From contig NZ_SMAF01000005.1 in assembly GCF_004343305.1 (NCBI RefSeq), positions 62,001-126,000 on the forward strand: DNA of 64,000 bases, written 5' to 3'. Shown here in pieces: positions 18,413-62,001 of the stretch. How positions within the stretch are numbered: the stretch's first letter is position 1; each line of letters begins with the position of its first letter. The position numbers and the translations under genes are program-made. The DNA comes from Pseudofulvimonas gallinarii (GTDB lineage: Bacteria; Pseudomonadota; Gammaproteobacteria; Xanthomonadales; UBA2363). The notes under the pieces are model-generated. The model did no database searches, was not told the origin of the DNA, and saw only the letters and a list, made by a program, of their open reading frames with translations.

Positions 18413-19483
18413 ATGACCGATACCCTGCTCAACGACCGCCTGCTGCGCGCCCTGCGCCGGCAACCCGTGGACCGCACGCCGGTGTGGATCATGCGCCAGG
18501 CGGGCCGCTACCTGCCGGAATACCGCGCCACCCGCGAACGCGCGGGCAGCTTCATGGCGCTGTGCCAGACGCCGGAGCTGGCCTGCGAGGTGACGATGCA
18601 GCCGCTGGCGCGCTTCCCGCTGGACGCAGCGATCCTGTTCTCCGACATCCTGACCATTCCCGATGCGATGGGCCTGGGTCTGAGCTTCGCGGAAGGTGAA
18701 GGACCTCGCTTCGCTCGCCCGCTGCGCACTGCCGCCGACATCGAACGCCTGGGCGTGCCGGACCCGGAGCGGGACCTCGGCTACGTCATGGATGCCGTGC
18801 GCGTGATCCGTCGCGAACTTGCCGGGCGCGTGCCGCTGATCGGATTCGCCGGCAGCCCCTGGACGCTGGCCTGCTACATGATCGAAGGCAAGGGCGGCGG
18901 TGATTTCCGCATCGCCAAGGCGATGCTGGCCGAACAGCCGGCGTTGATGCACAGGCTGCTCGACATCCTGACCGACGCAGTCATCGCCTACCTCGCGGCG
19001 CAGTACCGCGCCGGCGCCCAGGCGCTGATGGTCTTCGATTCCTGGGGTGGCGTGCTCGCACCGGCGCACTTCCGGGAATTCTCGCTGCGCTACCTGCAGC
19101 GCATCGCCGACGAACTGCCGCGCGGCGATGGCGACCAGCGTGCGCCGCTGGTGCTGTTCCCGAAGGGCGCCAACTGCCACCTCCCGGCCCTGGCCGACAC
19201 CGGCACCGATGCCATCGGCATCGACTGGACCATCGGCCTGGACCAGGCACGACGCCTGACCGGCGGTCGCGTGGCGCTGCAGGGCAATCTCGACCCGACC
19301 CTGCTGTACGCGAATCCGGACGCCATCCGCCGCGAAGTGGCGCGCGTGTTCGCCGAGTTCGGCCATGGCCCCGGCCATGTCTTCAACCTCGGCCATGGCA
19401 TCACGCCGGAAGTGCCGCCGGCGCACCTGGCCGCCGCCATCGCCGCGGTGCACGAACTCAGCCCGGCCTATCACGCGGACTAG
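18413..19483 (+). CDS. hemE: Uroporphyrinogen decarboxylase
   Basis: HemE removes four carboxyl groups from uroporphyrinogen III to give coproporphyrinogen III. The 356-residue product (354 in E. coli) begins its conserved part with [14 protein letters not shown], whose arginines bind the substrate carboxylates. The catalytic aspartate lies in [15 protein letters not shown], and [15 protein letters not shown] and [14 protein letters not shown] are further signatures. The ATG at 18413 gives family length. The last codons ([17 protein letters not shown]) are duplicated in altered form about 188 bp downstream. Haem made through this step supplies the cbb3 oxidase and Ccm system encoded later in the window. 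Confidence 0.97.
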
Positions 19484-19805
19484 TGCGCAACGGCCGCGGA
19501 CGCCAGGATCCGCAAGGATCCTGGTGCCCGCTCCCAAGGCGGACCCAACCCGGCCGCAAGACGCGGGCGCGCGTTGCGGAGAGCGACCATCGACACCTGG
19601 TCGCGCGTACATTCAGGGCAGCCGCCATCGCCGCGGTGCGCGAATCCGGGCCGGCCTATCACGCGGACTGATACGCAAGGAAGCGGACGCCAGGACCGGC
19701 CACGATCCGGGTGCCCGTTCCCAAGGCGGACCCGACCCGGCCGCAAGACGCGGGCGCGCGTCCCGGAGAGCCGCCGACCCCATCGGGTCGGGCGTACCAA
19801 CAGGG
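19433..19805 (+). repeat. Tandem ~187-bp imperfect duplication containing the 3' end of hemE
   Basis: Copy 1 (19433-19618) starts inside hemE; copy 2 (19621-19805) follows directly. Both contain the end of the hemE frame, reading [14 protein letters not shown]-stop in copy 1 and IAAVRESGPAYHAD-stop in copy 2. Both then run through a shared non-coding part that includes a 20-base identity CCGCAAGACGCGGGCGCGCG at 19554 and 19741. The copies are collinear with small indels (offset 187-188 bp). This is the only content seen between hemE and the gene ending at 19875; no separate gene is supported. Confidence 0.85.
19503..19524 (+). terminator. hemE hairpin, GCAA loop
   Basis: CCAGGATCC and GGATCCTGG form a perfect 9-bp stem around a GCAA tetraloop 20 nt after the hemE stop. 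No T-run follows. The corresponding place in the second repeat copy has lost the pairing. Confidence 0.55.
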
Positions 19806-21176: not shown

Positions 21177-21789
21177 GTCGGGTGTCCTTGGGAGGCTGGG
21201 GTTGCCGGGAGTCGAAAACTGCCGCTTCGCCGGATGTGGCCTGATCGCCCCGCAAGGCGGTGGGGCCATCCCGGGATACGGCAAACCCGGCCGCGGGCCG
21301 ACAAGCCGGCACAGGCCGACGGCCGTTGTGGCCCCGCGTGGGTCGGCGCACAGCCGGGCAGGCGCGTGCGGCAGCGCCAACGATGAGGCGGGCACGGCGG
21401 AAACGGCGAAGGGGCGGTAATCCGTTGCGCCACGGTCCCGGCCAGCGGGCCCTGCCCGGATTCGCGGAAGGACGGCTGTCCGGCTGCGGGCGCTTCGTGT
21501 CGGGCACATCGCACTTGGCAACAGTCGGCGAAGCGTCCGGCGGCGGCGACGGTGGAAGCCGCCTGAACCCGCGCCGTGAGAGGCTTTGACAAGGCCCGGG
21601 CCTGCCCCTAGTCTAGGCGGCACAGCGTCGACCGTCCCACGCGGGATGCCCGCCATCTGGCGACGACGACGTCGCGGTCCGCGACCGGCGCAACGCGCCA
21701 ACGCCCTACTCGACACGCACCCACGCCGGCGCACGCGCAGCGCCTGCTGCCCGTTGCCAGCGCATTCCCGCAAGGCCGACCCGCTCCGG
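21177..21789. other. 613-bp divergent intergenic region before scpA
   Basis: No gene is supported here: the open frames lack a start with a ribosome site and show no protein-like composition. The region separates the exported protein gene (minus) from scpA (plus) and contains the promoter at 21586-21614. The scpA frame is open upstream of 21790 but has no conserved residues there. Confidence 0.6.
21586..21614 (+). promoter_or_regulatory. Sigma70 promoter of scpA
   Basis: TTGACA (21586-21591) is a perfect -35 hexamer. After a 17-bp spacer comes TAGTCT (21609-21614), matching the -10 consensus at T1, A2 and T6. It predicts a start near 21621, a leader of about 170 nt, and transcription of scpA-scpB-rluB. 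Confidence 0.55.
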
Positions 21790-22713
21790 ATGAGCACCGA
21801 TACGTCCACGCCCGATACGCCCGCCCCGCCGGCGACGACGCCGCAGCAGCAGGAAATGCCGCTGGCCGTCGTGCACGGGCAGCCGTTCGTGAAGATGCCG
21901 GAGGACCTCTACATCCCGCCGGATGCACTGGAAGTCATCCTCGAAGCCTTCGAAGGCCCGCTCGACCTGCTGCTCTACCTGATCCGGCGCCAGAACCTCG
22001 ACATCCTCGACATCCCGGTCGCCGAGATCACCCGGCAGTACACCGACTACATCGAGCTGATGCAGGACCTGAAGCTGGAACTGGCGGCCGAATACCTGGT
22101 GATGGCCGCCATCCTCGCCGAAATCAAGTCGCGCCTGCTGCTGCCGCGACCGCCCGAGGAAGAGGCCGTCGAAGAGGATCCGCGCGCCGAGCTGGTCCGT
22201 CGCCTGCAGGAATACGAGCGTTTCAAGAAGGCGGCGCAGGACATGGACGCGCTGCCGCGCCAGGAACGCGACTTCATGCCGGTGCGTATCGACCCCGGCG
22301 ACCACAAGGTGGTGCGCCTGCCGCCGCCGGTGGAACTGCGCGAACTGCTGCTGGCGCTCAAGGATGTCCTCAAGCGCGCCGACCTGCTCAGCCACCACGA
22401 GATCCAGCGCGACACGCTGTCCGTGCGCCAGCGCATGACCGACGTGCTGGCCTCGTTGTCCGATGGCGCCTTCCACCGCTTCGAATCGCTGTTCGAAGGC
22501 GCGACGACCCGTCGCGGCGTCGTCGTCACCTTCATGGCGATGCTGGAGCTGGCCAAGGAATTCCTGATCGAGATCGTGCAGGAGGAAACGCTCGGTCCGA
22601 TCTACCTGCGCAGCGCCGGCGGCCATCCGCAGGAATCCGTCGACGGGATTGACGACGGGTCCGAAGACATTTCCAACCAGACCAGCGACGGGACATGGAT
22701 ACCGAGCGCCTGA
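21790..22713 (+). CDS. scpA: Segregation and condensation protein A (kleisin)
   Basis: ScpA is the kleisin that bridges SMC heads together with ScpB in chromosome segregation. The 307-residue protein has the N-terminal SMC-binding helix bundle starting at LEAFEGPLDLLLYLIRRQNL, the family signature. The C-terminal winged helix that contacts the other SMC head (about 205-280, with VVVTFMAMLELAKE) follows. Before residue 38 there is a Pro/Thr-rich extension, and a short acidic tail follows residue 285. The ATG at 21790 is used because the family signature begins some 50 residues later. It overlaps scpB by 19 bp. No smc gene is in the window. Confidence 0.95.
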   Translation: MSTDTSTPDTPAPPATTPQQQEMPLAVVHGQPFVKMPEDLYIPPDALEVILEAFEGPLDLLLYLIRRQNLDILDIPVAEITRQYTDYIELMQDLKLELAAEYLVMAAILAEIKSRLLLPRPPEEEAVEEDPRAELVRRLQEYERFKKAAQDMDALPRQERDFMPVRIDPGDHKVVRLPPPVELRELLLALKDVLKRADLLSHHEIQRDTLSVRQRMTDVLASLSDGAFHRFESLFEGATTRRGVVVTFMAMLELAKEFLIEIVQEETLGPIYLRSAGGHPQESVDGIDDGSEDISNQTSDGTWIPSA

Positions 22714-23774
22714 AACCCATTATCGAAGCGGCCGTGCTCGCTTCCACTTCGCCGATCAGCATCGCGCGCCTCGCCGAGCTGTTCGACGAAGCCGAACGCC
22801 CGACGACCGACCAGATCGCCCAGGCGCTTCACGCATTGAGCGAGGACTGCGCGCAGCGCGGCATCGAACTCGTCGAAGTCGCGTCGGGTTTCCGCTTCCA
22901 GGTCAAGGCGGACGTGTTCCAGCACCTGACCGGCCTGTGGACGGAACGGCAGAGCCGCTATTCGCGCGCGCTGCTCGAAACCCTGTCCCTGATCGCCTAC
23001 CGGCAGCCGATCACGCGCGGCGAGATCGAGCAGATCCGCGGCGTCGCCGTCGCCACCAGCATCCTGCGCACGCTGGAAGAGCGCGAATGGGTGCGCGTCG
23101 TCGGCCATCGCGACGTACCCGGCAAGCCGGCGCTGTACGGCACGACGCGTGCGTTCCTGGACTATTTCCAGCTGCGCAGCCTCGACGAGCTGCCGCCGCT
23201 GTCGGCGCTGCGCGACCTCGAGAACCTCGAGCCGGAGCTGGCGCTCGACATCGATGCACCTCCGGTGCCGCGCACGCTGGAATTGCCGCCGGAAGACCTC
23301 GATCCGGAACAGGCTGCGCCGGAAGCCGGCCCGGACGCGCGCAGCGAAGACGATTCCGATGGCGCCGCTGTCGACGGCGACCCGTCTGATGCTTACGGCA
23401 ATGCCGGGAAGCCCGACCCCGCCTCCATCGACGCCCCGCACAACGCTGAAGACGACGACTCCGACGACGACGACTCCGACGACGACGACTCCGACGACGA
23501 TGACTCCGACGACGATGACTCCGACGACGATGACTCCGACGACGATGACTCCGACGACGATGACTCCGACGACGATGACTCCGATGACGATGACGCCGAC
23601 GAGGACGACGCCGACGAGGACGACGACGCCGATGACGACGACCCGGATGACGCCTCCGACGACGGCCGGGCACCAATCGAACACCACGCCCACGCCGACG
23701 GGACACCGGCTGCCGACCAGGCATCCGCGGACGGCGTCGATGACCAAGACGATGGCGACACGCCACGCAACTGA
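22695..23774 (+). CDS. scpB: Segregation and condensation protein B with acidic repeat tail
   Basis: ScpB dimerises and wraps the ScpA kleisin in the SMC condensin complex. Two winged-helix domains occupy residues about 1-180 (KPIIEAAVLAST near the start, LLETLSLIAYRQPITRGEIE in the middle, KPALYGTTRAFLDYF at the end), the normal extent of ScpB. The remaining 180 residues are an added tail that is low in complexity and strongly acidic, with nine serines spaced five apart as DDDDS (residues about 253-300). It is encoded by a 15-bp minisatellite. The next gene, rluB, follows after 11 bp and has the opposite, basic tail. Confidence 0.95.
   Translation: MDTERLKPIIEAAVLASTSPISIARLAELFDEAERPTTDQIAQALHALSEDCAQRGIELVEVASGFRFQVKADVFQHLTGLWTERQSRYSRALLETLSLIAYRQPITRGEIEQIRGVAVATSILRTLEEREWVRVVGHRDVPGKPALYGTTRAFLDYFQLRSLDELPPLSALRDLENLEPELALDIDAPPVPRTLELPPEDLDPEQAAPEAGPDARSEDDSDGAAVDGDPSDAYGNAGKPDPASIDAPHNAEDDDSDDDDSDDDDSDDDDSDDDDSDDDDSDDDDSDDDDSDDDDSDDDDADEDDADEDDDADDDDPDDASDDGRAPIEHHAHADGTPAADQASADGVDDQDDGDTPRN
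23451..23597 (+). repeat. 15-bp minisatellite inside scpB encoding Asp4-Ser
   Basis: Serine codons TCC recur every 15 bp from 23460 to 23580 (nine copies). Units after the first two serines are all GAC. The next six (23493-23582) are identical GACGACGATGACTCC copies, showing expansion of one variant unit. The frame is kept throughout because the period is a multiple of three. Confidence 0.95.
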
Positions 23775-23785
23775 ATGACCCACCC

Positions 23786-25477
23786 ATGACCACCGAACGC
23801 AAAGTCCTTTCACTGCGCCGCGACACGGCCGGCCTGCCGCAGATCACCGAACGCCTGCACAAGGTGCTCGCCAATGCCGGCCTGGGTTCGCGCCGCAGCA
23901 TCGAGGAGCGCATCGCCGCCGGCGAGATCCGCATCAACGGCGATGTCGCGCAGATCGGTGCACAGCTCAACAATGGCGACCGCGTCGAGATCGACGGCCG
24001 CCGGTTTGCGGCCGTGCCCTGCACGCCGGAAGAAGTCCGCGTCCTCGTCTACAACAAGCCGGAAGGACTGGTGACGACGCAGGACGACCCGGAAGGCCGT
24101 CCGACCGTCTTCGAGAAGCTGCCACGCCTGAAGGGTGCGCGCTGGGTCAGTGTCGGCCGCCTCGACATCAACACGACCGGCCTGCTGCTCCTCACCACCG
24201 ACGGTGAGCTGGCGAACGCGCTGATGCATCCGAGCAAGGCCGTCGAGCGCGAATATGTCTGCCGCGTGTTCGGCGAAGTCACCGATGAGCACCTCGCCCA
24301 GCTGAAGGCAGGCGTGCAGCTTGAGGACGGTCCGGCGGCATTCGACGACATCGTCGAGATCCACCGCGACGAACGCCATTCCTGGTTCCGCGTGCTGCTC
24401 AGCGAAGGCCGCAATCGCGAAGTCCGCCGCCTGTGGGAAGCGATGGGCCTGATGGTCAGCCGCCTCAAGCGCATCCGCTACGGCATCATAGAATTGCCGC
24501 GCGAACTTCGCCGCGGCCATTACCGCGCCCTCGATGCCGAACAGGTCCGCGCCCTGCGCCACAGCGTCGGCCTGGACGACGCGCCGCAGTCCCTGACGTT
24601 GGAACCCATCGTCGGCCAGCGTCGCGCGCCGGTGCGCCCGAGCAACGAATACCGCCCCGAGCCGAAGGCGCAGCGCGCCTGGACCGGCACCAGCATGGAC
24701 GAAGCGCGGGAACTGCGCGCCTTCGACCGTCCCTTGCTCGACGACGGTCTTGGCCGCCGCAAGAAGCGCGTGTCCGGTGCGCCGGGCAAGCGCGGCAAGC
24801 AGCGCCCTGCCGGAGCGCCGGGCCGTGGCAAGCCGGGTGCCGCAGGTGCCGGAGCCGGTCCGCGTGGCAAAGGCGCCGGCGCAGGCCGGGGTCGCGGCCG
24901 CACCGGTGGCGCGGCGGGCGCGGCGGGCGCGGCGGGCGCGGCGGGCGAACGCATCGAACGCGGCAACCGCGCCGAGCGTCCGGCGGGTAGTGGCGCACCG
25001 GTTCGCCGGCAGCGCAAGACACGCACGATGACAGGTCCGATGGACAGCAACGAAATGCTGTTCCGGACCTGGTACCCGGGCGACGCCGGCGGCAACGTCG
25101 CCTCGCCGGGCAACCGTTTCGATGACGATGACAACCGCGGCAACCGCATCGGCGATGCCGACGGCAACCGCGCCCCGTCGAAGCCGCGCCGCCAGCGGGC
25201 GGGCGCACCGGGCAACGGCAGTGGAAACGGCAACGGCAATGCCGCCCCGCGTGAAGGCAACAACGGCAACGTCGCGCCGCGCGCACCGGGAAACCGGGCC
25301 GGTCGCAACAAGCCGGGCAAGCCGCGTCCCGCACGCGCGCCGGGTGAAAACGCCGGCAATGCCGCGCCGGCTGCAGGTGAAGGCGACAACCGGCAGCGGC
25401 GTGGTCCTTTCGGCCGCGTGCGCAAGCGTCCCGGCAAGCGCCCCGAAGGCGGCGGCTCCTCGTCCGACGAGGGCTGA
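23786..25477 (+). CDS. rluB: 23S rRNA pseudouridine(2605) synthase RluB with long basic tail
   Basis: RluB makes pseudouridine 2605 in 23S rRNA. Residues about 20-65 form an S4 RNA-binding domain (RLHKVLANAGLGSRRSIEE). The RsuA-type catalytic domain follows, with the catalytic aspartate in VGRLDINTTGLLLLT and the closing REVRRLWEAMGLMVSRLKRI. The enzyme part ends near residue 270. The 290 remaining residues are disordered and rich in Gly, Ala, Pro, Arg, Lys and Asn, including a run of GAA repeats encoded by 9-bp units near 24915-24950. Basic tails of this sort are known in RluB of related bacteria and may help rRNA binding. The total of 563 residues is about double the core length. Confidence 0.94.
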   Translation: MTTERKVLSLRRDTAGLPQITERLHKVLANAGLGSRRSIEERIAAGEIRINGDVAQIGAQLNNGDRVEIDGRRFAAVPCTPEEVRVLVYNKPEGLVTTQDDPEGRPTVFEKLPRLKGARWVSVGRLDINTTGLLLLTTDGELANALMHPSKAVEREYVCRVFGEVTDEHLAQLKAGVQLEDGPAAFDDIVEIHRDERHSWFRVLLSEGRNREVRRLWEAMGLMVSRLKRIRYGIIELPRELRRGHYRALDAEQVRALRHSVGLDDAPQSLTLEPIVGQRRAPVRPSNEYRPEPKAQRAWTGTSMDEARELRAFDRPLLDDGLGRRKKRVSGAPGKRGKQRPAGAPGRGKPGAAGAGAGPRGKGAGAGRGRGRTGGAAGAAGAAGAAGERIERGNRAERPAGSGAPVRRQRKTRTMTGPMDSNEMLFRTWYPGDAGGNVASPGNRFDDDDNRGNRIGDADGNRAPSKPRRQRAGAPGNGSGNGNGNAAPREGNNGNVAPRAPGNRAGRNKPGKPRPARAPGENAGNAAPAAGEGDNRQRRGPFGRVRKRPGKRPEGGGSSSDEG

Positions 25478-49369: not shown

Positions 49370-50683
49370 ATGCGCCCGTCTCCTTCCAAGCCCGCGAAAC
49401 CCGGATTCCTGCGCAGCCTCGATGGCGGACGCCGGCAACCGCCGGGACGTCGCCTGCTGTCGCGCGTCGCCGCCGCCGTCACGTGGACCGCCGTGGCTGT
49501 CGCGGTGACCGTGGATGTGGATGCAGCCGAGTCGGATCCCTGGATGGATGCCGGACGCGGCCTCGTGCTGACGCCGCTGCGCAACGTCGAGGCGATGGCC
49601 ACCGGCGGCACGCACACCTGTGCCCGGCTATCCAGCGGTTCACTGGTCTGCTGGGGCAACAATGCCGCCGGCCAGGTCGGCGACGGCAGCGGCGCACCGA
49701 TGCAGCCGTTGCCGGCGCGCGTGCGTGCGCTGGGCGGCTTTGTCACCGCCTTCAGCGCGGGCGCCGATCACACCTGCGCGGTCATGGCGGGTGCGGCGTA
49801 CTGCTGGGGCCGGAACGCGTCCGGGCAGCTCGGCAACGGATCGACCTTCGACCAGGGCGAACCCGTTGCGGTCACCGGCCTCGGCAGCGGCATCGCGACT
49901 GTCAGTGCCGGCGCCTTCCACAGCTGCGCGCTGACCAGCGGCGGTGGCGTGAAATGCTGGGGCCTGAACAGCGACGGCCAACTTGGCGACAACACGCTGA
50001 CACTGCGACCGACACCGTCGAACGTGGCCTCGCTGTCCAGCGGCGTCAGCGCCATCACCACCGGTTCGTACCACAGCTGCGCAATGACGACGGGCGGTGG
50101 CGTCAAATGCTGGGGCCGCAACGATTTCGGCCAGCTCGGCGACGGTACGCAGACCCCTCGCACGTCACCCGTCGATGTCAGCGGCCTGTCCAGCGGCGTG
50201 CGCGCGATCAGCGCCGGTGGCCTGCACACCTGCGCCGTCCTGGTCGCGGGCGGCGTGCGTTGCTGGGGATACAACCAGGACGGCCAGCTCGGCGACGGCA
50301 GCACCACGTTGCGGCTCACGCCGGTGAATGTCAGCGGTTTCAGCAGCGGTGGCCGCCTCATCGCCAGCGGCCTGTTCCACACCTGTGCCGCGACGTCGAC
50401 CGGCGCGGTGCGCTGCTGGGGCCAGAACAACGCCGGCCAGCTCGGCGACACGACGACCACGATGCGCACCACGCCGGTGAACGTCGAAGGCCTGTCCAGC
50501 GGCGTGGCCGTGCTCGCAAGCAGCCACCACCACACCTGTGCCGACCGGCCCGACGGACAGATGCGCTGCTGGGGCGGCAACGGTTCGGGACAGCTCGGCG
50601 ACTACACCACCACCAACCGCACGGTGCCGGTCAACGTGCTGCAGCGGGATTCGATTTTCGAACACGGGTTCGAGGCGCCCTAG
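49370..50683 (+). CDS. Exported seven-repeat RCC1-like protein (copy 1)
   Basis: The 437-residue protein has an N-terminal basic region and hydrophobic segment (about 32-52) that would act as a signal peptide. It then carries seven repeats of about 50 residues, each with CWG followed by N-x2-GQ(L/V)GD/N, and H(T/S)CA about 40 residues apart, as in RCC1/regulator-of-chromosome-condensation repeats. Seven copies would make a complete seven-bladed propeller. Each blade has two cysteines that could form disulfides outside the cytoplasm. The C-terminus is IFEHGFEAP, similar to two other exported proteins here. Bacterial relatives have no settled function. CACAGGAT precedes the ATG at 49370. Confidence 0.9.
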   Translation: MRPSPSKPAKPGFLRSLDGGRRQPPGRRLLSRVAAAVTWTAVAVAVTVDVDAAESDPWMDAGRGLVLTPLRNVEAMATGGTHTCARLSSGSLVCWGNNAAGQVGDGSGAPMQPLPARVRALGGFVTAFSAGADHTCAVMAGAAYCWGRNASGQLGNGSTFDQGEPVAVTGLGSGIATVSAGAFHSCALTSGGGVKCWGLNSDGQLGDNTLTLRPTPSNVASLSSGVSAITTGSYHSCAMTTGGGVKCWGRNDFGQLGDGTQTPRTSPVDVSGLSSGVRAISAGGLHTCAVLVAGGVRCWGYNQDGQLGDGSTTLRLTPVNVSGFSSGGRLIASGLFHTCAATSTGAVRCWGQNNAGQLGDTTTTMRTTPVNVEGLSSGVAVLASSHHHTCADRPDGQMRCWGGNGSGQLGDYTTTNRTVPVNVLQRDSIFEHGFEAP

Positions 50684-51209: not shown

Positions 51210-52547
51210 ATGCGCAGCAAGCATTCCGTTACCTTCCGCCTTTTCCAACCAACGCGCCGCAAGGCCGCCGCAACGGGCCCGCAGTCAACGGCGATGGAGG
51301 CTGGTCGCCGAGGATTCCGGCGCCCGGACGGCGTACGCGCGGTGCTTGCCGTTGCGGCGCTGCTCTGCGCCGGAACGGGTTTCGCATTCGACGGATCCGC
51401 ACCGTCGTCCCATGGCGCCGACCCGTTCGGCGGTGGGCCGGCGACACCGCTGCGCCATGTCGTGCGCATCACCACCGGCACCTTCCACAGCTGCGCCAGC
51501 CTCACTGGCGGCGCCATGCGTTGCTGGGGCGACAACATCTACAGCCAGCTCGGCAACGGCGACAGCTACGAGCAGCCGGTCGCGGTGCCGGTGATCGGTC
51601 TGGCCAGTGGCGTGCAATCGATCAGCGGTGGTGGCAGCCATACCTGCGCGGTCGCCAATGGCGCAGCGCGCTGCTGGGCCTACAACTATTTCGGACAGGT
51701 CGGAGACGGCACCGATACCGACCGCGACATTCCGACGCCGGTGATCGGCCTGGCCAGCGGAACGTCCGCCATCAGTGCCGGCATGAACCACAGTTGCGCG
51801 CTCACCAGCACGGGCGGCGTGAAGTGCTGGGGCGCCAATGGATTCGGCCAGCTCGGCGACGGTACGGACACGAACCGGCTGTCACCGGTGAATGTCAGCG
51901 GCCTCAGCAGCGGCGTGCAGGCGATCAGTGCCGGTGGCGAGCACACCTGTGCGCTGACCACCGCGGGTGGCGTGCGCTGCTGGGGCAACAACGACTACGG
52001 CCAGATCGGCGATGGCAGCACCACGCAGCGCTCGACGCCGGTGAACGTCAGTGGCCTCACCAGCGGCGTGCAGGCGATCAGTGCCGGCCGCTTCCATACC
52101 TGCGCGGTGCTGACCACCGGCGCGGTCCGATGCTGGGGCATCAACGAGGACGGCCAGCTGGGTGACGGAAGCACGATCGACCGCAGCACGCCGGTGAACG
52201 TCTCCGGTTTCAGCACTGGCGGGCACGCCGTTGCCGCCGGCGCCCTCCACACCTGTGCGGTCACCACCGGCGGCGCGGCGCGCTGCTGGGGCTACAACGG
52301 CTGGGGGCAGCTGGGCAATGGCACCACGACGAGCAGCCTGGTACCGGTCAATGTCACCGGCCTGTCGAGCGGCGTGCTCGCCATTGCCGCTGGCGGCTCG
52401 CATTCCTGTGCCGCGGGCACTGACGGCCGCGCCCGCTGCTGGGGCGGCAACGAATATGGCCAGCTCGGTGACGACACCTGGAACGACAGCACCACGCCCG
52501 TGTTCGTCCTGCAGGCGGACGGCATCTTCGCGCATCCGTTCGAATGA
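51210..52547 (+). CDS. Exported seven-repeat RCC1-like protein (copy 2)
   Basis: A paralogue of the preceding RCC1-like gene, 445 residues. A long basic N-region (about 1-40) is followed by a signal peptide (VRAVLAVAALLCAGTGFA, cleavage near residue 60). Seven repeats then carry the same CWG and HTCA pattern, with one blade reading CWA. At DNA level the repeats are about 150 bp long and closely alike, for example the VNVSGLSSGVQAISAGGEH unit. The C-terminus is DGIFAHPFE. The start is set by CACAGGAT 9 nt before the ATG, as in copy 1. Confidence 0.9.
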   Translation: MRSKHSVTFRLFQPTRRKAAATGPQSTAMEAGRRGFRRPDGVRAVLAVAALLCAGTGFAFDGSAPSSHGADPFGGGPATPLRHVVRITTGTFHSCASLTGGAMRCWGDNIYSQLGNGDSYEQPVAVPVIGLASGVQSISGGGSHTCAVANGAARCWAYNYFGQVGDGTDTDRDIPTPVIGLASGTSAISAGMNHSCALTSTGGVKCWGANGFGQLGDGTDTNRLSPVNVSGLSSGVQAISAGGEHTCALTTAGGVRCWGNNDYGQIGDGSTTQRSTPVNVSGLTSGVQAISAGRFHTCAVLTTGAVRCWGINEDGQLGDGSTIDRSTPVNVSGFSTGGHAVAAGALHTCAVTTGGAARCWGYNGWGQLGNGTTTSSLVPVNVTGLSSGVLAIAAGGSHSCAAGTDGRARCWGGNEYGQLGDDTWNDSTTPVFVLQADGIFAHPFE

Positions 52548-52575: not shown

Positions 52576-52623
52576 CCCGGGGGCGATGTCCTGGCCGGAC
52601 GTCGCCGGATCGGATCAGGCGGA

Positions 52624-53565
52624 TCAGATCAGGCGGATCTCGCGCAGGCGCTCGAGCAGGTAGTCGTGCGCAGTGATCGGCTGCGGATAGCGGTCCGGAT
52701 TGTCCGGCGTGATGCATGACGGCAGCGTCTCGATCAGGAAATCCGGATTCGGGTGCAGGAAGAAGGGAATCGAATAGCGCGGTTTGCGGGCGGCGTCGCC
52801 CTTCGGGTTCACCACGCGGTGGGTGGTTGACGGATACACGTGGTTGGTCAGGCGCTGCAGCATGTCGCCGATGTTGACGACGATGGCGTCGCCCTGCGTG
52901 GTGATCGGCAGCCACTTGCCATCCTTGCCCAGCAGTTCCAGGCCGGCGGCGCTGGCACCGATCAGCAGGGTGATGAAGTTGATGTCCTCGTGCGCGCCGG
53001 CGCGCACGTTCGGCACGTCCTCGGTCTCGATCGGCGGATAGTGGATCGGCCGCAGAATGGAATTGCCGAAATTGATCTTGTCGTCGAACCAGTTTTCCGG
53101 CAGGCCGATGTACAGCGCCAGCGCACGCAACACGCGCGCCCCCAGCTGGTCCAGGGCCTCGTAGAGGCCGTAGCCGAATTCACGGAAGCCCTCGACCTCG
53201 GTCGGCCACAGGTTCGGCGGCATGACGTCGGCATACTTCGAATCCCGCGGAATCTCGCGACCGATGTGCCAGAACTCCTTCAGGTCCGGATGCTGCGAAT
53301 CCTTCGCGGTCTCGACCTTGAACGGCGTGTAGCCACGCGCGCCACCACCACCGGGTACGTGGTACTGCATCTTGACGTCGGTGGGCAGGGCGAAGAAGCG
53401 CTGGAACACGTCATAGACACCGTCCAGCAGCCCTGCCGACAGCCCATGGCCGCTGATGCCGCAGAAACCGAACTGTTCGTAGGCCTGGCCCAGCTCGCGC
53501 ACGAAGTTGTCGCGGTCGGTGTCAAAGCGGCGGATGTCCAGGGTGGGGACGTAGGCGGTGCTCAT
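52624..53565 (-). CDS. Isopenicillin N synthase-family 2-oxoglutarate/Fe(II) dioxygenase
   Basis: The 313-residue enzyme has the N-terminal domain LGQAYEQFGFCGISGHGL and a double-stranded beta-helix core. The iron ligands are His and Asp in AGAHEDINFITLL and the distal His in YPSTTHRVVNP; RYSIPFFLHPNPD carries the Arg-x-Ser that binds 2-oxoglutarate. The substrate is unknown. The family includes widespread bacterial oxidases beyond antibiotic synthesis. It lies 11 bp downstream of glmM on the same strand, so they are probably cotranscribed. Confidence 0.92.
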   Translation of the reverse strand: MSTAYVPTLDIRRFDTDRDNFVRELGQAYEQFGFCGISGHGLSAGLLDGVYDVFQRFFALPTDVKMQYHVPGGGGARGYTPFKVETAKDSQHPDLKEFWHIGREIPRDSKYADVMPPNLWPTEVEGFREFGYGLYEALDQLGARVLRALALYIGLPENWFDDKINFGNSILRPIHYPPIETEDVPNVRAGAHEDINFITLLIGASAAGLELLGKDGKWLPITTQGDAIVVNIGDMLQRLTNHVYPSTTHRVVNPKGDAARKPRYSIPFFLHPNPDFLIETLPSCITPDNPDRYPQPITAHDYLLERLREIRLI

Positions 53566-60411: not shown

Positions 60412-62001
60412 CTATTCCGCCCACTCGATGTCGGGCAGCCTGTCGATGCCTTCGCGACGCTTGGCCTCGGCGACCATGGCGCGCACGTCCGCCAGCAATT
60501 GCCGCGCGTCATAGACGATGCCGTCCTTGACCGTGTAGCGCACGCCGCCGACGCGAACCGCGCGGTTGTCTTCGCTGACGCGCACGGCGCCGGTGCCGAG
60601 CAGCACCTTCAGGTCCTCGAGCGGATTCTCGGCAACGACGACCAGGTCCGCGAGCTTGCCGGCCTCGATGGAGCCGACCTGGTCGGCGACGCCCAGCGCT
60701 TCGGCGCCGGACAGCGTCGCCGCGCGGATCACTTCCAGCGGATGGAAACCGGCTTCGCGAAGCAGCTCCAGTTCCTCGATGTAGCCGAAGCCGTAGGTCT
60801 TGTAGATGTAGCCGGAATCCGAGCCGGTGGTGACGCGGCCGCCGTGGTTCTTGTAGTCCTCGACGAACGCCATCCACAGACGGTAATTGTCACGCCACGC
60901 ACTTTCCTGTTCGCTGCCCCAGCGGAACCAGAACGAGCCATGCGCCTTGCGGTTGGGCTGGTAGAAGCGCCACAGCGACGGCAGCGTGTAGTCCTGGTGC
61001 CATTCCGAGGTGCGCGCGCGCATGTAGTCGCGCGTGGCCTGGTAGATGGTGAAGGTCGGATCGAGCGTGAAGTCCAGTGCGATCAGCTCGTCGCGCACGG
61101 CGTTCCACTTCCCGCTGCCCGGTCGCGCGGCCTGCCGCCACAAGCGACCGGCATTCTCGAAGCGGTGCTGCTCGTCGCCGTAGTTGTAGTCGGCCGGATA
61201 GTCCTGCACGGTGCGGTCCTCGAACAGCGCTTCCGGCAGGCCGTACCAGTGCTCCATCGAGGTCAGGCCCCAGCGCGCGCTGGTCAGCACGTTGACGCGA
61301 CGCACGTCCATCTGCGCGTGGTGGGTCAGCGTGCGCAGGCCACGCTCGCGTGCTTCCTCGATCGCCGCCTGCATGATGTCCGGGCGATAGCCGAAGAACT
61401 TCACGCCTTCGCCGCCACGGCGCGCGACCTCGCGCACCCACTCGCGCGCCTGTTCCGGCGTCGTGAACGGCCCGTTGCGTCCCATGCCGAAAAACGCATA
61501 CGGATGGATGCGCGGCGCCGCGATGCGGTTGGCGTCGCTGCGCTTCTTCTCCGACACGCACCAGTCCAGGCCGTTGCCACAGCCCGGTTCGCGAACAGTG
61601 GTGACGCCGTGGCCCAGCCACAGCTTGTACACATACTCGGCCGGCGTGCCCTGCTGGGCGCCGCCGATGTGGCCATGCATGTCGACGAAACCCGGTAGCA
61701 CGTAGTGGCCTTCCAGGTCGATCTCGCGACCGCCGGGTTCCAGCTTGGGCCGGCTTTCCGGGTCGATGGGCACGCCGGGATAACCGACGCCGGCGATGCG
61801 CTCGATGCGATTGCCGCGGATCACGATGTCCAGCGGTCCATTTGCCGGCGCGCCGGTGCCGTTGATGACGGTGACACCGCGCAGGATCAGTTGCGGATAC
61901 GGGCCGTCGCCTTCGCCTTCACGGCGCTCCGGCGCCGGTTCGATCGCGGCGAAGGCGGCCGGGGCCAGCAAGCCCAGGGCCAGGGCGGTCAGTCGTTTCA
62001 T
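60412..62001 (-). CDS. Exported amidohydrolase-family protein
   Basis: The 529-residue protein has a signal peptide (LTALALGLLAPAAFAA) and the metal-dependent hydrolase barrel. DMHGHIGG carries the first metal-binding His pair, THHAQMDVRRVN a later His, HWYGLP another, and TGSDSGYIYKTYG the catalytic aspartate. The C-terminal composite half ends AGKLADLVVVAENPLEDL, typical of imidazolonepropionase- or prolidase-like members. The substrate is unknown; an exported peptidase or lactonase role is possible. It converges with the M50 gene (141-bp gap, no clear terminator). Confidence 0.9.
   Translation of the reverse strand: MKRLTALALGLLAPAAFAAIEPAPERREGEGDGPYPQLILRGVTVINGTGAPANGPLDIVIRGNRIERIAGVGYPGVPIDPESRPKLEPGGREIDLEGHYVLPGFVDMHGHIGGAQQGTPAEYVYKLWLGHGVTTVREPGCGNGLDWCVSEKKRSDANRIAAPRIHPYAFFGMGRNGPFTTPEQAREWVREVARRGGEGVKFFGYRPDIMQAAIEEARERGLRTLTHHAQMDVRRVNVLTSARWGLTSMEHWYGLPEALFEDRTVQDYPADYNYGDEQHRFENAGRLWRQAARPGSGKWNAVRDELIALDFTLDPTFTIYQATRDYMRARTSEWHQDYTLPSLWRFYQPNRKAHGSFWFRWGSEQESAWRDNYRLWMAFVEDYKNHGGRVTTGSDSGYIYKTYGFGYIEELELLREAGFHPLEVIRAATLSGAEALGVADQVGSIEAGKLADLVVVAENPLEDLKVLLGTGAVRVSEDNRAVRVGGVRYTVKDGIVYDARQLLADVRAMVAEAKRREGIDRLPDIEWAE

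Follow-up and report, generated by a model that had tools for sequence, protein, structure and literature searches.

We analyzed a window of 64,000 nucleotides (positions 62001 to 126000 of contig C5 in genome G000, which is 3.45 Mb in size and assembled in 57 contigs). On the plus strand of the window, an open reading frame of 359 amino acids (22695..23774) carries a short tandem array. This array-bearing frame is scpB, the gene for the SMC-Scp complex subunit ScpB. In a profile search, residues 9 to 169 matched PF04079 with an E value of 1.7e-51 (174.5 bits compared to a cut-off of 27.4), and the NCBIfam model TIGR00281 was matched with 115.5 bits (cut-off, 89.2). The open frame directly upstream (21586..22713, plus strand; start position putative) corresponds to the kleisin gene scpA (PF02616; E value, 4.7e-30) and overlaps the start of scpB. 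Downstream, rluB (23786..25477, plus strand; NF007976, 304.8 bits against a cut-off of 290) follows after a gap of 11 bp. Two SMC_N matches were detected on contig C5, each in an open frame of 1,201 amino acids and 3.4 kb apart from end to end, and were read as one smc gene. A profile match above the cut-off and an adjoining scpA were thus found together with an Smc encoded elsewhere on the contig, and the protein resembles ScpB (PF04079), the kite subunit of Smc-ScpAB, in its shared core, its adjoining scpA, and the presence of an smc-sized SMC_N frame. The conserved core comprises about residues 1 to 182 (22695..23240, plus strand; the boundary is approximate), and the last invariant columns in an alignment of 29 ScpB sequences were P180 and L182. 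The core is followed by a C-terminal tail of 177 amino acids (23241..23771, plus strand), which was recognized as acidic and of low complexity by its composition.

The array lies within this tail and is in frame with scpB (23448..23597, plus strand; residues 252 to 301). Tandem Repeats Finder reported a period of 15 bp for 23451-23664 (score, 275). Read in the Asp4-Ser register, the array consists of EDDDS (23448-23462), eight DDDDS units (23463-23582), and a final DDDDA (23583-23597). A unit listing and a repeat scan showed that six successive units, GACGACGATGACTCC, are identical (23493..23582, plus strand), which confirmed both the count and the coordinates given by the initial annotation, including the shared GAT variant. 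The two DDDDS units that precede them read GACGACGACGACTCC. The longest perfect run of period 15 measured 98 bp (23487-23584) and was also the longest perfect tandem run in the window at any period from 4 to 60. On the 3′ side, the repeat scan revealed a degenerate flank that begins with DEDDADEDDDADDDDP (23598..23664, plus strand) and a further perfect run of period 15 (34 bp, 23592-23625). The array is thus uniform in the middle and degenerate at its edges, a pattern that fits a growth of the array from within. With units of at least 7 bp arranged head to tail beyond chance expectation and a period that is a multiple of three in the scpB frame, the array has the makeup of a coding minisatellite. 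All unit counts are those of the assembly, and a wrong number of units due to misassembly would be conceivable in a genome that is split into this many contigs, as tandem repeats are described as a known source of assembly error (PMC6868369). However, common reads are longer than the perfect run, the scpB frame stays open along the whole array, and distinct variants mark its edges, so that we consider such an artifact highly improbable.

Because peptide repeats in biased codons look repetitive at the DNA level anyway, the null model for unit identity kept the protein fixed. When synonymous codons were permuted within the tail, a run of 98 bp was reached in 3 out of 10,000 permutations (mean run, 40 bp; 95th percentile, 59 bp; maximum, 110 bp). 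Permuting the codons of the array alone resulted in 2 out of 10,000, and independent codon draws based on the usage of three neighboring gene stretches reached this length in 10 out of 100,000 cases. In these gene stretches, GAC accounts for 40 of the 50 Asp codons, so that codon bias explains part of the sameness of the units. As GAC already prevails among the Asp codons, the result obtained against synonymous shuffles is strong without being extreme. Codon bias hardly explains why six units in a row have GAT at the same position. The same type of test was applied to a total of 100 ScpB tails. For five of them, the perfect repeats exceeded those of nearly all synonymous shuffles (reached in no more than 2 of 200), while about one such tail would be expected by chance. 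The tail of the window contained the longest perfect tandem run of all 100 (83 matched positions compared to 37 in the next tail).

To place the array among relatives, 110 ScpB proteins were collected, namely, the protein of the window, 29 from the same genus or order, and, out of at least 507 relatives, the 80 named loci that were nearest to the query. Removal of four duplicates left 106 distinct proteins (that of the window, the 29 of the genus and order, and 76 named ones, which mostly carry Lysobacterales names and include one Rhizobium sp.). Out of 59 genomes with an ScpB match, the 29 without a locus were left out. Variable acidic tails proved to be common among these relatives as well, but the protein of the window was the only one of the 106 with an Asp4-Ser array, and DDDS did not occur in any of the other 105. 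Two congeners (G001 and G002) have ScpB cores that are 80% identical and acidic tails without Asp4-Ser, one of which contains DTDTDTDADADA and the other DADADAD. Within the genus, the array is accordingly present in one species and absent in two. The perfect repeats of these two tails were matched by 34 and 31 of 200 synonymous shuffles, respectively, and those of L021, an ScpB from another family of the order with an acidic stretch rich in Asp/Glu and Phe in its tail, by 86 of 200. As they lie within the codon-shuffle nulls, these repeats need not be recent. A common origin of the array and the L021 stretch is unlikely in view of the different family and of the different acidic tails in the same-genus loci L020 and L023.

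In the own genome, all nine overlapping matches to the repeat pattern (up to three mismatches) fall inside this array. Two adjacent DDDDS units with Ser encoded by TCN were detected in 3 of 398 genomes of the order, including the own genome. In the other two (L119 of G175 and L121 of G083), the single pattern match per genome lies in the tail of ribosomal protein S6, with a PF01250 match in both cases. These S6 tails share the peptide pair DDDDS-DDDDS and its position in an acidic C-terminal tail with the ScpB of the window, while the proteins are unrelated. We rejected common ancestry of the two types of tail, since the S6 proteins of the own genome and of the two congeners do not contain DDDDS-DDDDS. 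The simplest reading of this distribution is that the array arose in the present lineage after the split from the known congeners; loss of an existing array in both congeners would be less likely. Identity of the units beyond the synonymous shuffles, their restriction to a single array in the genome, and the absence of the array from the congeners therefore argue for a recent, lineage-specific expansion in frame. The earlier proposal of a recent expansion would have been contradicted by a shared unit number and codon pattern among the relatives; instead, synonymous-site identity exceeded chance and neither the congeners nor any other ScpB of the sample contained the motif.

The Asp4-Ser units could also be thought of as a serial phosphorylation platform, in which Hanks-type kinases act on the serines and thereby tune Smc-ScpAB. 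In the own 3.45-Mb genome, 30 Pkinase matches (PF00069) above the cut-off were counted. The congeners had 35 and 36 matches, and eight other genomes of the order contained between 4 and 73. In addition, the order of Ser and then Asp in the units presumably resembles CK2-type sites. However, the occurrence of DDDS in only 1 of the 106 ScpB proteins, which makes it private to this species within the sample, renders a conserved phosphosite of this kind unlikely, and for the same reason a conserved Asp4-Ser motif was dismissed. Moreover, comparable acidic tails have Phe or Ala between their acidic residues. In the literature searched, no title or beginning of an abstract linked the ScpB tail to phosphorylation. 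Taken together, we regard the phosphorylation platform as very unlikely.

Among the ScpB proteins compared, the tails ranged from 5 to 252 amino acids in length (median, 97). To follow length changes between close relatives, we turned to genus g38 (35 genomes with cores that are 96 to 100% identical to the query core), which we judged to be Xanthomonas, as its tails match those of named Xanthomonas loci. Five of the 35 genomes had no locus, and 1 of the remaining 30 loci was not parsed by the motif search. The 29 parsed tails measured 139 to 232 amino acids. Loci L183 and L184, whose core DNA is 99.2% identical, differ by a single gap in the tail, which corresponds to exactly one 6-bp GATGTC unit (three versus two copies). 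Out of the eight closest pairs of this genus that were aligned, this was the one clean unit change, while three pairs had no gaps and four displayed several gaps that did not correspond to units. Therefore, the gain or loss of repeat units is not the only mode by which the tails evolve. The initial annotation had assumed that the period allows the tail to vary in length without loss of function. This was supported between species, by the overall range of lengths, the range within g38, and the one clean unit difference; within the species of the window, such variation would be a prediction. All 29 parsed g38 tails end with SQTHE or SQTYE. The idea that the tail serves to present a conserved C-terminal peptide fits this one genus but was rejected, as no such shared ending was seen in the window and its congeners. 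The ScpB tail of L105 (Xanthomonas cissicola) diverges from that of its relative L106 downstream of DAGFDQQ, stops after 15 further residues, and lacks the conserved C terminus; we suspect a frame change, either real or caused by a sequencing error.

In contrast to sequence and length, the sign of the charge of the tails was found to be consistent. The tail of the window contains 84 acidic (D/E) and 5 basic (K/R) residues and thus carries a net charge of −79, compared to −28 and −20 for the tails of the congeners. All 99 complete tails of at least 30 amino acids, from this genome and its relatives, were net negative (six tails below 30 amino acids and one that was ended by a contig edge were excluded; tails were counted from about residue 182, and the start can be off by a few residues where the match began later). 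D and E together made up 28.8% of the pooled tails, whereas shuffling of the bases predicted 7.2% from base composition; for K and R, the values were 2.5% observed and 18.6% expected. For comparison, the ScpB core contains 15.1% D and E and 11.6% K and R. Since all long tails are negative while their sequence and length vary, it is the negative charge that is held. Long ScpB tails of conserved negative charge apparently extend beyond the order: in the 20 loci from outside the order that could be parsed by the motif search (out of 28, with 8 left unparsed; 30 phylum loci in all), all 16 tails of at least 30 amino acids were negative, and of the 4 shorter tails, 3 were negative and 1 was neutral.

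These statistics bear on the possibility that the tail is neutral clutter, i.e., that slippage occurs in an unconstrained C-terminal extension and that the acidity is a by-product of GC-rich codons. The free variation of tail length and sequence would be in line with neutrality, as would the finding that lineages have different repeats or none at all. However, shuffled bases yield basic tails, the opposite of what was observed in each of the 99 cases. Furthermore, the product of the adjoining rluB gene has a long tail that is encoded by GC-rich DNA as well (74.8% G+C compared to 67.6% for the ScpB tail), and this tail is basic, with 20% K/R and 9% D/E. Pure neutrality of the tail is thus disfavored by the charge statistics, and we rate it as unlikely. 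What deserves attention is that the ScpB proteins of this order keep a long acidic tail of maintained charge despite fast changes in its length and sequence. Among the matches listed by a literature search on ScpB and condensin tails, which covered few subscription journals, none dealt with acidic ScpB tails according to its title or the beginning of its abstract.

A further feature of the tails is a TTT motif, considered together with eight residues on either side, which was present in 34 of the 106 tails (4.6 expected from shuffling), mostly near the tail end. It occurs in L040, L048, L053, L055, and L087, among others, and takes the forms NAVETTTVP in Lysobacter, NAVATTTVAVDEAD in Xanthomonas, and NDTTTSDDVPE in Tahibacter. 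The motif was not found in the tails of the window and its congeners. We take it to resemble the ETTS motif of GarA/OdhI that is targeted by kinases.

The tail is predicted to be unstructured. ScpB chains in the PDB match at most residues 1 to 197 and hence end before the array. AlphaFold2 predicted neither helix nor strand beyond residue 174, with low pLDDT values in this part. The model was poor overall (mean pLDDT, 59), and the second half of the core was badly modeled as well, which may be due to a shallow alignment of 29 sequences. We therefore made use only of the missing secondary structure beyond residue 174. PDB chains related to Niemann-Pick type C1 were matched by residues 194 to 319 (E value, 3.4e-4), which was read as a low-complexity match.

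Taking the charge statistics and the repeat structure together, the array is probably a coding minisatellite that expanded through in-frame duplication in a disordered acidic tail of ScpB, and this tail would work by charge and reach. Units would be duplicated in tandem and in frame by replication slippage or unequal exchange. Each additional unit would add four negative charges, and the number of units would largely be tolerated. The acidity of the tail would be maintained by selection, and the tail would act through its charge and its reach, with its exact sequence being unimportant. Thus, we consider it most likely that slippage extends a disordered tail that is constrained mainly to remain acidic and in frame. 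On the ScpA-ScpB subcomplex, such a tail may form a flexible anionic brush that either repels DNA or competes with it for basic patches on the Smc heads and the kleisin. For eukaryotic DNA-binding proteins, D/E repeats are described in PMC10250230 to cause autoinhibition by covering basic surfaces; according to the same source, D/E tails can also speed up the target search by keeping the protein away from decoy sites. If ScpB behaved in a similar way, its acidic tail would limit nonspecific DNA contacts of the ScpA-ScpB-Smc head region. In a more far-reaching scenario, the slippage-prone repeats would constitute an electrostatic rheostat on condensin that is tunable in length, so that the gain of a unit increases the negative charge near the ScpA-Smc heads and shifts DNA loading, and lineages, perhaps even strains, adjust the folding of their chromosomes. 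We consider this quite unlikely. If the tail does tune Smc-ScpAB, the repeat number would represent a natural and cheap means to vary the chromosome-folding machine, and the natural series of tail lengths would offer ready-made test constructs.

The acidic stretch might instead act during translation by destabilizing the ribosome, which would lead to truncated ScpB and lower translation of rluB, to an extent tuned by the number of units. The spacing of just 11 bp between scpB and rluB would suit such an effect, and consecutive acidic residues, including internal stretches in a context-dependent manner, are described as able to abort bacterial translation (PMC9718836 and PMC11282234). However, as outlined in these sources, the effect is seen mainly near the N terminus, within about 30 to 40 residues, and most internal stretches are shielded by the nascent chain. 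The array starts only at residue 252, far beyond an acidic stretch within about the first 30 to 40 residues that would be typical of intrinsic ribosome destabilization. We regard a translational role as very unlikely.

Several known systems are related to the array and its tail. According to PMC6749651, coding satellites that keep the frame through periods divisible by three form a recognized prokaryotic class, and low-complexity regions, for which several roles have been proposed, are reported to occur in many prokaryotic proteins (PMC6821194). The array has the same short tandem layout, a unit that is a multiple of three, and the resulting amino acid repeats. Unlike the minisatellites presented in PMC6749651, it lies in a chromosome maintenance protein, and it is known here from one genome of the species. 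Taken by itself, the array is ordinary, since repeats that preserve the frame are familiar from disordered tails. The tail also resembles the D/E-repeat tails of HMGB1 and similar proteins, as portrayed in PMC10250230, in that it is C-terminal, highly acidic, predicted to be unstructured, and attached to a protein of a DNA-handling complex. In contrast to these tails, its acidic runs are broken by Ser or Ala and comprise five residues at most, compared to the 10 or more consecutive D/E residues of a strict D/E repeat. We rate the kept charge of the tail, more than the array, as the part worth testing.

The window contains additional repeats outside scpB. Within rluB, the part for the basic, Gly-rich tail contains 4.4 copies of a perfect 9-bp repeat, GGCGCGGCG (24908-24947). 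A tandem unit of 187 bp occurs in 1.8 copies with 86% matching positions (19429-19771). A 14-bp repeat, CGGATCAGATCAGG, whose period is not a multiple of three, is found in 2.4 copies (52606-52639). Repeats of 153 bp were detected at 50175-50506 and 51798-52202; judging from the appearance of their consensus, we presume that the translated units resemble RCC1-type repeats.
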